DNA of 64,000 nt from Synechococcus sp. JA-3-3Ab (GTDB taxonomy: Bacteria > Cyanobacteriota > Cyanobacteriia > Thermostichales > Thermostichaceae), in the NCBI RefSeq assembly GCF_000013205.1, contig NC_007775.1, forward strand, positions 1,484,501 to 1,548,500. The letters run 5' to 3'. The notes beneath the pieces were generated by a model. It made no database searches, was not told where the DNA came from, and saw nothing but the letters and a program-made list of their open reading frames with translations. Positions within the stretch are counted from its first letter, which is position 1. Each line of letters opens with the position of its first letter. Below, piece by piece: positions 4,874 to 8,604 of the stretch. The translations under genes were made by a program, and so were the position numbers.

Positions 4874-5524
4874 GTGCGCGTGCCCTCTGGCATCACCCAC
4901 CTGTTCAAGCTGGCTTTGCTGGCAGTGCTGCTTTGGGTGGGATCCGGCGTTGTTTCGGCTCTGGCCCGCCCGCATTCTTCTTACGATTTGCTCCTGGCAC
5001 AACAGTTGGGCAAAACCGTGAAAACCTACAACAGTCCTCCCCCCATGGTGATCGACCCGGCCAAGTCCTACACGGCCACGCTGGAGACCACCGCCGGCAC
5101 GATGGTTTTGGAGCTGTTCCCGCAGGAAGCTCCCCTTGCCGTCAACAATTTTGTCTTTTTGGCCCGGGATCACTTCTACGATGGCGTCATCTTTCACCGT
5201 GTCATTCGGGGCTTCATGATTCAGGGCGGGGATCCCACCGGCACGGGGCGAGGCGGGCCGGGGTACCGCTTTCCCGATGAGCCGGTGCAGCGCCCCTACA
5301 CGCGAGGAACCTTGGCCATGGCCAATGCCGGCCCCAACACCAACGGCAGCCAGTTTTTTATCATGCATGCCGACTATCCCCTGCCGCCCAACTACACCAT
5401 CTTTGGGCAACTAATCGAGGGGGAGGACGTGTTGGATAAAATTGCTACTGCACCCACCGGCCCGCAGGATCGTCCCCTCAAGCCGGTGGAGATCAAGTCT
5501 GTTCGCATCTCGGAATCGAACTAG
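4874..5524 (+). CDS. Exported cyclophilin-type peptidyl-prolyl isomerase
   Basis: A 216-residue protein with a GTG start. An N-terminal hydrophobic segment (about residues 10-30, ending near SALA) should act as a signal peptide or anchor, so it probably acts in the periplasm or thylakoid lumen. The cyclophilin domain covers about residues 65-210: FHRVIRGFMIQGGDPTGTG contains the catalytic Arg and Phe-Met-Gln of the family, followed by LAMANAGPNTNGSQFFI. It would speed cis/trans isomerisation of proline bonds in exported proteins. A second in-frame GTG at 4880 is an equally possible start. Confidence 0.93.
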   Translation: MRVPSGITHLFKLALLAVLLWVGSGVVSALARPHSSYDLLLAQQLGKTVKTYNSPPPMVIDPAKSYTATLETTAGTMVLELFPQEAPLAVNNFVFLARDHFYDGVIFHRVIRGFMIQGGDPTGTGRGGPGYRFPDEPVQRPYTRGTLAMANAGPNTNGSQFFIMHADYPLPPNYTIFGQLIEGEDVLDKIATAPTGPQDRPLKPVEIKSVRISESN

Positions 5525-5610: not shown

Positions 5611-6906
5611 ATGGAGTTCGCTAGGCCCCGGCGAATGTCCCCCCGCATTTTGGCTCTGGATTTTGATGGTGTGCTCTGCGACGGGCGGGCGGAGTATTTT
5701 GCCTCTTCCTGTCGGGTCTGCGCCCAGGTGTGGGGCCTTGCTCCTGCCCAGTTGGAGTCGTTGCGCCCTGCCTTCGACCGCCTGCGCCCGCTGATCGAGA
5801 CCGGCTGGGAGATGCCCCTGCTGCTGTGGGGGCTGCAGCAAGGGATCCCCGAAGACGCTTTGCGCCAAGACTGGCCCGGCTGGCGGCAGCGGTTGTTGCA
5901 GGGAGCGGGGATCTCCGAGCAGGCTTTAGCCCAAAGGCTGGATGAGGTGCGGGATCGCTGGATCGAAGAAGATCTGCAGGGCTGGCTGGGGCTGCACCGC
6001 TTTTATCCGGGAGTGGCGGCTTGGATGCGCCAGATCCAGGCTGCTGGCGAGCCCCGCCTGGCCATTCTCAGCACCAAGGAGGGGCGGTTTATCCAGCAGC
6101 TTTTGCTCCGCGAAGGGATCCAGCTGCCGCGCCACCGTATCCTGGGCAAGGAGGTGCGCGCCCCCAAGGCCACCACCCTCCGGCGGCTGCTAGCAGCGAC
6201 CCAGGTAGCGCCTGAGGAACTCTGGTTTGTCGAGGATCGCCTGCAGACGCTGCGCCAGGTGCAAAGGGTGCCGGACCTGGAGCAGGTGCTCTTGTTTTTG
6301 GCTGCCTGGGGCTACAACCTGCCCGAAGAGCGGCAAGAGGCGGCGCGGGATCCCCACCTCCATTTGCTTAGCCTGGAACAGCTCTTCCAGCCCTTTGAGC
6401 AGTGGTTGGCTGCTCCTTCCCCCCGCCTTGCTATCAGCCCGGCCAGCCCGGAAGACTTGAGCCGGGCCCGGCTCACCCCTGGCCGGAAACGCCCGGAAGC
6501 CGGTTTGGCCTCGCTGGTGCTGACCTTGGTGGAGCTGCTGCGGCAGTTGATGGAAGCGCAAGTGGTGCGACAGATGGAGGCCAACCGCCTTTCTGCCGAG
6601 CAAATCGAGCGGGCCGGCAGCAGCCTCCAGGCCCTGCGGCAGCAAATTCGGCAACTCTGCGCCCTGCTGGAGATCGACCCGGCAGAGCTCAACCTAGATC
6701 TGGGGGATCTGGGCTCTCTCTTGCCCCGCCAGGGGGACTACTACCCCGGCCAACCCCACGGCGAGGGATCCCTGCTGGAACTGTTGGATCGGCTGATCAA
6801 CACCGGGATCGTCATCGACGGCGAGATCGACCTGGGCTTGGCCGACTTAAGCCTCATCCACGCTCGCCTACGATTGGTGCTCACCTCCAGCGCCAAGCTT
6901 TCTTGA
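5611..6906 (+). CDS. HAD hydrolase fused to GvpK and GvpJ/GvpA-like gas vesicle domains
   Basis: One uninterrupted 431-residue frame carries three domains. Residues 9-255 are an intact HAD hydrolase: nucleophile loop LDFDGVLCDG, motif II AILSTKEG, a lysine in RAPKATTL, and motif IV WFVEDRLQTL. Residues about 297-372 match gas vesicle protein K, with GLASLVLTLVELLRQL at the start and LNLDLGDLGSLLP at the end. Residues about 385-426 match the GvpA/GvpJ core, with SLLELLDRLINTGIVIDGEI followed by LADLSLIHARLRLVL. A linker rich in Pro and Arg joins HAD to GvpK. I chose the ATG at 5611 because GGGGGA lies about 7 bases upstream; ATGs at 5596 and 5635 are alternatives. No other gvp gene lies in the window. 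The function is unknown; assembly or scaffolding is a guess. Confidence 0.88.
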   Translation: MEFARPRRMSPRILALDFDGVLCDGRAEYFASSCRVCAQVWGLAPAQLESLRPAFDRLRPLIETGWEMPLLLWGLQQGIPEDALRQDWPGWRQRLLQGAGISEQALAQRLDEVRDRWIEEDLQGWLGLHRFYPGVAAWMRQIQAAGEPRLAILSTKEGRFIQQLLLREGIQLPRHRILGKEVRAPKATTLRRLLAATQVAPEELWFVEDRLQTLRQVQRVPDLEQVLLFLAAWGYNLPEERQEAARDPHLHLLSLEQLFQPFEQWLAAPSPRLAISPASPEDLSRARLTPGRKRPEAGLASLVLTLVELLRQLMEAQVVRQMEANRLSAEQIERAGSSLQALRQQIRQLCALLEIDPAELNLDLGDLGSLLPRQGDYYPGQPHGEGSLLELLDRLINTGIVIDGEIDLGLADLSLIHARLRLVLTSSAKLS

Positions 6907-7026: not shown

Positions 7027-8604
7027 ATGGATGTCTTCGCCCCAACCGGAAACCTGCATGCCGGCGCCATTTGGCCGGAGGTGGTGGTTACCCTCACGCT
7101 GTTGATCGTCCTGGTGGTGGATTTGGTGGGTGGGTCGGCGGCGCGCAAAAGTCTTCCGGCCCTCTCCCTCTTTGGTTTGCTTGGGGCCTTGGTGACCTTG
7201 GTGTTGCAATGGCAGCAGCCCCAGTTGGAGAGCTTCTTGGGCAGCTTTGCCGCGGATCCGGTGAGCATTCTCTTCCGCGGCCTGGTGGTGGCGACGGCAG
7301 CCCTGACGGTGATGATGGCGGAGCGCTACTTCCTCCAGGCAGGCGCGCCCACGGGCGAGTTCTATGTGCTGCTCCTCACGGCCACCTTGGGGGGCATGTT
7401 CCTCGCCGGGGCGACGGATCTCATCATGGTGTTCGTCTCCTTGGAAACGCTGGGCATCGCCAGCTACCTGATGGCCGGCTACACCAAGCGGGATCCGCGT
7501 TCTTCCGAGGCGGCCCTGAAGTATCTGTTGACGGGGGCCAGCAGCACCGCTATCTTCCTCTACGGCATGTCGCTGCTTTATGGCCTGTCGGGGGGGCAGA
7601 CCCAGTTGGCGGCTATTGCGCCCTACCTGGCCAATGCCGGGCTGGTGGGGATCCTCGCTTTGGTGTTCTGCCTGGGCGGCATTGGCTTTAAGCTGGCGGC
7701 GGTGCCTTTCCACCAGTGGACTCCTGATGTCTATGAGGGATCCCCAACGCCGGTGGTGGCCTTCTTGTCGGTGGGATCCAAGGCGGCAGGCTTTGCCCTG
7801 GCCATTCGCTTTTTGGCCACCGTCTTTCCGGCGATGACAGAAGAGTGGCGGGCGGTGCTCTCGGTGCTGGCCATTTTGACCATGGTGCTGGGGAATGTGG
7901 TGGCGATTGCCCAAACCCGCCTCAAACGACTGCTGGCCTATTCTTCTATTGGGCAGGCGGGCTTTGTCTTGATCGGTTTGGTGGCGGGCACCGAAGCGGG
8001 CTATGCCAGCTTGATTTTTTACCTGATGGTCTATTTGGCCATGAACCTAGGGGCTTTTCTGTGTGTCACCCTCTTCAGCCTCAAGACTGGCACCGACGAA
8101 ATCAACGAGTACAGCGGCCTCTATCAGAAGGATCCCTTTCTCACCCTTTGCCTGAGCATTTGTCTGCTCTCCCTGGGCGGGTTGCCGCCGCTGGCCGGCT
8201 TTTTCGGCAAGCTCTATCTCTTCTGGGCCGGCTGGCAGGCAGGAGAATACACGCTGGTGCTGGTGGGCCTGGTGACTAGCGTCATCTCCATCTACTACTA
8301 CGTGCGGGTGGTGAAAACCATGGTGGTAAAAGAGCCGCAGGAGATGTCGCTTTCGGTGCAAAACTACCCCCCAACCGACTGGCAGGCCGAGGGCATGCCG
8401 GCTTTGCGGGTGGGCATGGTGGTGACGCTGGTGGCCACCATCTTCGCTGGCATCCTCTCCAATCCTCTATTTACCCTCTCCACTCAGGCGGTGGAGCAAA
8501 GCCCGTTTTTGGGGTTCCCGACAGCCCAGGCTTTTGCTCCAGGGTCGGCCAGCCCTTCTCTGGCCGTTGCAGGATCTGCAGCTTTGCCTAGCCGCGGTTC
8601 CTAG
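7027..8604 (+). CDS. ndhB: NAD(P)H-quinone oxidoreductase subunit 2 (NdhB)
   Basis: A 525-residue polytopic membrane protein, a proton-pumping antiporter-like subunit of the NDH-1 complex of cyanobacterial thylakoids. It serves respiration, cyclic electron flow and CO2 uptake. The family core is clear: [19 protein letters not shown] with its conserved Glu, [37 protein letters not shown], and [16 protein letters not shown]. Length fits cyanobacterial NdhB. It is a stand-alone gene here, as is usual for cyanobacteria. Confidence 0.97.

Follow-up and report, generated by a model that had tools for sequence, protein, structure and literature searches.

The window is a 64,000-nucleotide stretch of the genome of Synechococcus sp. 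JA-3-3Ab, a Yellowstone hot-spring strain whose genome forms one contig of 2,932,766 bases. Between a cyclophilin gene and ndhB, the window encodes a single frame that joins a HAD hydrolase to the gas-vesicle protein GvpK. The two neighbouring genes were named from sequence. The features are:

4874 to 5524, plus strand: cyclophilin-type peptidyl-prolyl isomerase gene, upstream neighbour, found at this place in each of the six genomes of the genus
5611 to 6906, plus strand: entire HAD-GvpK fusion open reading frame, 431 amino acids
5635 to 6408, plus strand: complete HAD hydrolase (residues 9 to 266), supported by the Pfam Hydrolase match, alignment, and a model with pLDDT mostly above 90
6409 to 6501, plus strand: variable linker (residues 267 to 297), pLDDT mostly below 50
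6472 to 6723, plus strand: GvpK domain as delimited by Pfam (PF05121; residues 288 to 371), its first ten residues overlapping the variable linker
6769 to 6885, plus strand: GvpA/J-like core (PF00741; residues 387 to 425), the usual C-terminal part of cyanobacterial GvpK
7027 to 8604, plus strand: ndhB, downstream neighbour, likewise at this place in each of the six

Translation of the fusion frame gives 431 codons and a stop, with no interruption. Three Pfam families match it, each above its curated cut-off: Hydrolase/HAD (residues 12 to 211, window 5644 to 6243; E = 6.2e-9, 37 bits against 26.4); PF05121 GvpK (E = 2.1e-30, 105 bits against 25); and PF00741 Gas_vesicle (E = 7.4e-13, 48.9 bits against 25). 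An earlier note on this DNA had described the same order of domains within one uninterrupted 431-codon frame, and had placed the gas-vesicle parts at 6499 to 6726 and 6760 to 6888, near the Pfam boundaries. All of this is borne out, and the frame is open in the six genomes of the genus. (The NCBIfam GvpA cut-off, NF006874, is not reached: the fusion scores 17.1 bits against 100.) The ATG at 5635 may be the true start, as it aligns with the methionine at which the protein begins in the second clade of the genus.

The earlier note took the K and J/A parts for two accessory proteins, encoded as separate genes in gvp clusters and here tied to a phosphatase-like enzyme. Comparison leads elsewhere: a GvpA-like core follows the K domain in all 31 stand-alone GvpK loci read outside the genus, as it does in the fusions, so K followed by J/A is no new fusion. 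A novel K-J fusion is rejected; this is the normal architecture of cyanobacterial GvpK. This K-plus-A form may characterise the photosynthetic class, because a distant member of the phylum (G100) has a short GvpK, with a GvpA-like frame apart from it.

Of 386 genomes surveyed across the phylum, 56 have GvpK. Its open frames span 436 to 450 amino acids in the fusion-bearing genus, whereas everywhere else they span 108 to 224. A contig scan recovered the fusion in only two of the 80 loci kept, both from this genus. Within the genus, HAD and GvpK share one frame in six of six genomes, the other five proteins being 75 to 88% identical to that of the window; a named relative turned up by the search is Synechococcus sp. 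M44_DOE_062. As to whether other cyanobacteria share the fusion, a question raised by the earlier note, it proved to be genus-wide, and the HAD-GvpK joint, the sole unusual part of the protein, was found only here. In another cyanobacterium (G291:C1:657932-662220) there are three equal-scoring GvpK matches 2,020 bases apart; they probably mark a section of its gvp cluster repeated in tandem.

Might the joint be an artefact of assembly, or the frame a decaying read-through pseudogene? The same frame, with the same cyclophilin and ndhB neighbours, recurs in all six assemblies, two of which are single-contig; since the fusion is the same in each, there is no assembly error of the kind the earlier note had allowed for. 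Moreover, pairwise dN/dS is low in every part (HAD, 0.10 to 0.17; linker, 0.17 to 0.43; GvpK, 0 to 0.14; A-like core, 0 to 0.14), these values being rough for the most distant pairs because synonymous sites are close to saturation. By this measure, all parts of the fusion are under purifying selection. An artefact or pseudogene is hardly credible, and is rejected. The protein is a true, old, genus-specific domain fusion that ends in an ordinary gas-vesicle protein; it is no new kind of system.

The HAD part has its motifs complete: the motif I DxD, the motif II T/S, the motif III lysine, and the motif IV acidic pair. No variation occurs at D17, D19, T155, K186, E208, or D209 among 101 aligned sequences; the identification of K186 as the motif III lysine is our own assignment. 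Stand-alone members of the family end at the equivalents of residues 264 to 271 in all but three of those measured, so the HAD of the fusion is entire. The AlphaFold2 model of this part, searched with Foldseek, matched HAD structures (best E = 1.3e-6), with phosphatases and putative phosphoglycolate phosphatases among the neighbours. The phosphoglycolate phosphatase equivalog (NF009695) is far from reached, at 19.8 bits against a cut-off of 225. By our count the family occurs in 53 of 59 genomes searched, and two diatom endosymbionts (L109, L143) have retained it; this distribution points to a housekeeping role.

The linker differs in length among the six genomes, every change being in frame, and AlphaFold2 predicts it to be disordered. 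For the GvpK half the model gives two helices of moderate confidence; because only three sequences in the alignment covered this half, the model is not interpreted further. A disordered linker would suit a scheme in which free GvpK is released, through proteolysis or from an internal start, and the fusion serves expression only. An ATG occurs within the linker in two of the six genomes and is absent from it in the other four. No internal start there is shared by all six; in one genome, the TTG that opens the GvpK core is replaced by TTA. An internal start producing free GvpK is rejected for this reason. The strict keeping of frame through every change of linker length also weighs against release, which overall we consider unlikely.

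The earlier note remarked that this stretch lacks other gvp genes. That is true of the immediate surroundings, where none adjoins the fusion, but not of the genome, for which the notion of an absence of gas-vesicle genes is rejected. A cluster at 838 to 841 kb holds gvpA, a GvpC-like gene, gvpN (AAA_5), and gvpJ, the GvpC-like gene being assigned from position and weak similarity with no Pfam match; gvpF lies at 1,241.6 kb and gvpG at 232.5 kb; and a second, weaker GvpL_GvpF protein, encoded at 16.2 kb, is probably GvpW. The sole GvpK of the genome is the fusion. A search of the genome for a second GvpK, or a second HAD of the same family, found none. The A-C-N-J cluster, gvpF, the second F/L-type gene, and gvpG are present in all six genomes of the genus, and the 71 to 72 residues of GvpA are identical across them. 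Such identity indicates strong maintenance of an ordinary shell protein and suggests that it is in use. Literature searches found no report of gas vesicles observed in these organisms.

The gvp genes of the genus occupy no fewer than five separate places on the chromosome: A-C-N-J; F; the probable W; G; and K within the fusion. The dispersed genes adjoin unrelated genes, mostly the same ones across the genus (L054, which is G000:C1:830000-849000; L162; L163; L164). In the window's clade, gvpF overlaps an upstream sugar-nucleotide pyrophosphorylase-like gene by 35 bases (L163:1545-3390 in G000; also L066 and L068); in the other clade (L065, L067, L069) a gap of about 130 to 200 bases separates the two. 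Beside the A-C-N-J cluster (L054:12104-14306), a phycobilisome-like gene lies between two V4R-domain genes.

This inventory bears on the interpretation offered in the earlier note, in which GvpK and its A-like core had been co-opted to oligomerise the HAD enzyme, possibly in another protein shell. The HAD part is indeed conserved and, judged by its residues, catalytically intact. The genome nevertheless has an ordinary gvp set whose only GvpK is the fusion, so nothing calls for a scaffold in another shell; and in every cyanobacterial locus read, the A-like core forms part of GvpK. We regard co-option as very improbable.

How did the fusion arise? In the GvpK tree (midpoint rooting), the six fusions form one group (99/96), with the sister genus's stand-alone GvpK adjoining it (99/94); the HAD tree likewise unites the six fusions (100/100). 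Gene order in the sister genus is geneX (divergent), gvpW, gvpK. In the fusion-bearing genus geneX and gvpW are still adjacent, and gvpK is gone from behind gvpW (five genomes checked). In its second half (PRLSI-PA-PEELSQ...) the linker is similar to the N-terminal end of the stand-alone sister-genus GvpK (G007; MAMQITAAQPQDWGQ...), a resemblance suggesting that GvpK, too, is probably complete in the fusion. As the simplest account, we infer a single relocation in the ancestor of the genus, in which gvpK would have moved once to the 3' end of the HAD gene and the intervening stop would have been lost. gvpW and gvpK occur together in the sister genus, which belongs to the window's family (L055:5747-7129), and in a genome of another family (G027; L064:6750-7906); no other gvp genes were found near either pair in the stretches read.

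In sum, the gene joins a complete HAD, widely conserved in cyanobacteria, end to end with the genome's sole GvpK, and the product is probably one chain doing both old jobs. Both parts are the sole copies in the genome, which counts for this reading. The protein would be made as one chain; its HAD domain would dephosphorylate a small phosphorylated molecule; and its C-terminal GvpK would act as a soluble assembly factor, needed early in ordinary gas-vesicle formation. Precedent comes from Bacillus megaterium, in which GvpK is essential, absent from purified vesicles, and probably soluble, and has been suggested to take part in seeding together with GvpS and GvpJ; most GvpK fusions there still allow vesicle assembly (PMC11445434). 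In each of the four major gas-vesicle systems studied, GvpK is reported to be essential (PMC11445434). The B. megaterium findings make it plausible that an N-terminal HAD is a harmless addition: the fusion may be tolerated because the protein is soluble, is missing from the finished vesicle, and still functions in B. megaterium with partners attached.

The two activities might instead be functionally coupled, with HAD activity or substrate binding regulating gas-vesicle seeding. For example, a phosphatase might be placed at nascent vesicles, or GvpK might respond to a phosphorylated metabolite such as 2-phosphoglycolate. Putative phosphoglycolate phosphatases are among the structural neighbours of the model, and the fusion has been kept in all six genomes with both halves under selection. 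Coupling of phosphatase to seeding is possible, and the persistence of the fusion is its sole positive support. On the other side, neither the sister genus nor any other gvp locus read has a HAD of the same family next to its gvp genes; the linker varies and is predicted to be disordered; and the HAD and GvpK families occur independently across cyanobacteria. Coupling in general seems decidedly unlikely, and we place slightly less belief in its specific form: a metabolite phosphatase tied to vesicle seeding, such that one protein would make buoyancy responsive to carbon or photorespiratory metabolism.

The fusion offers a clean opportunity to test whether linking a phosphatase to vesicle assembly is possible. 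A natural and long-lived fusion also suggests that GvpK tolerates a large N-terminal partner through a flexible linker, a guide for tagging. Finally, gas-vesicle genes can spread over at least five chromosomal sites while apparently still under selection.

A link between GvpK and HAD has been noted before. One sentence in Castillo and Saier (2010; PMC2963123) mentions a GvpK homologue of about 158 amino acids linked to an aspartyl-nucleophile HAD domain. That sentence names no organism, and Synechococcus sp. JA-3-3Ab is listed in the table of ArsA homologues in the same paper (PMC2963123); the homologue is probably the fusion described here. The section of that paper in which the sentence stands does not describe the fusion's distribution, its origin, or the dispersed gvp set (PMC2963123), and in the open-licence literature no paper was found on the genus-wide distribution, the relocation of gvpK, or the dispersed set.

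Among known proteins, the stand-alone cyanobacterial HAD (about 260 amino acids, with a phosphoglycolate-phosphatase-like fold) matches residues 9 to 266 or thereabouts with catalytic residues kept, at 42 to 52% identity in most cyanobacteria and about 30% in one family (f3); elsewhere it stands alone, whereas here the frame runs on into GvpK. Slr0586, Slr1762, and Sll1349, tested as 2-phosphoglycolate phosphatases in Synechocystis, are likewise described as HAD proteins widespread in cyanobacteria (PMC6278635), and the identity of the fusion's HAD with Slr0586 or another of these candidates is only a lead. The stand-alone cyanobacterial GvpK (PF05121 with a C-terminal PF00741-like core) resembles the C-terminal part of the fusion over nearly the full length of that part, A-like core included, at about 52 to 70% identity; the fusion differs in adding an N-terminal complete HAD hydrolase and a linker, and in lying away from other gvp genes. 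In contrast to the canonical gvp gene cluster, the GvpK of this genus is encoded not among gvp genes but alone, between a cyclophilin gene and ndhB.
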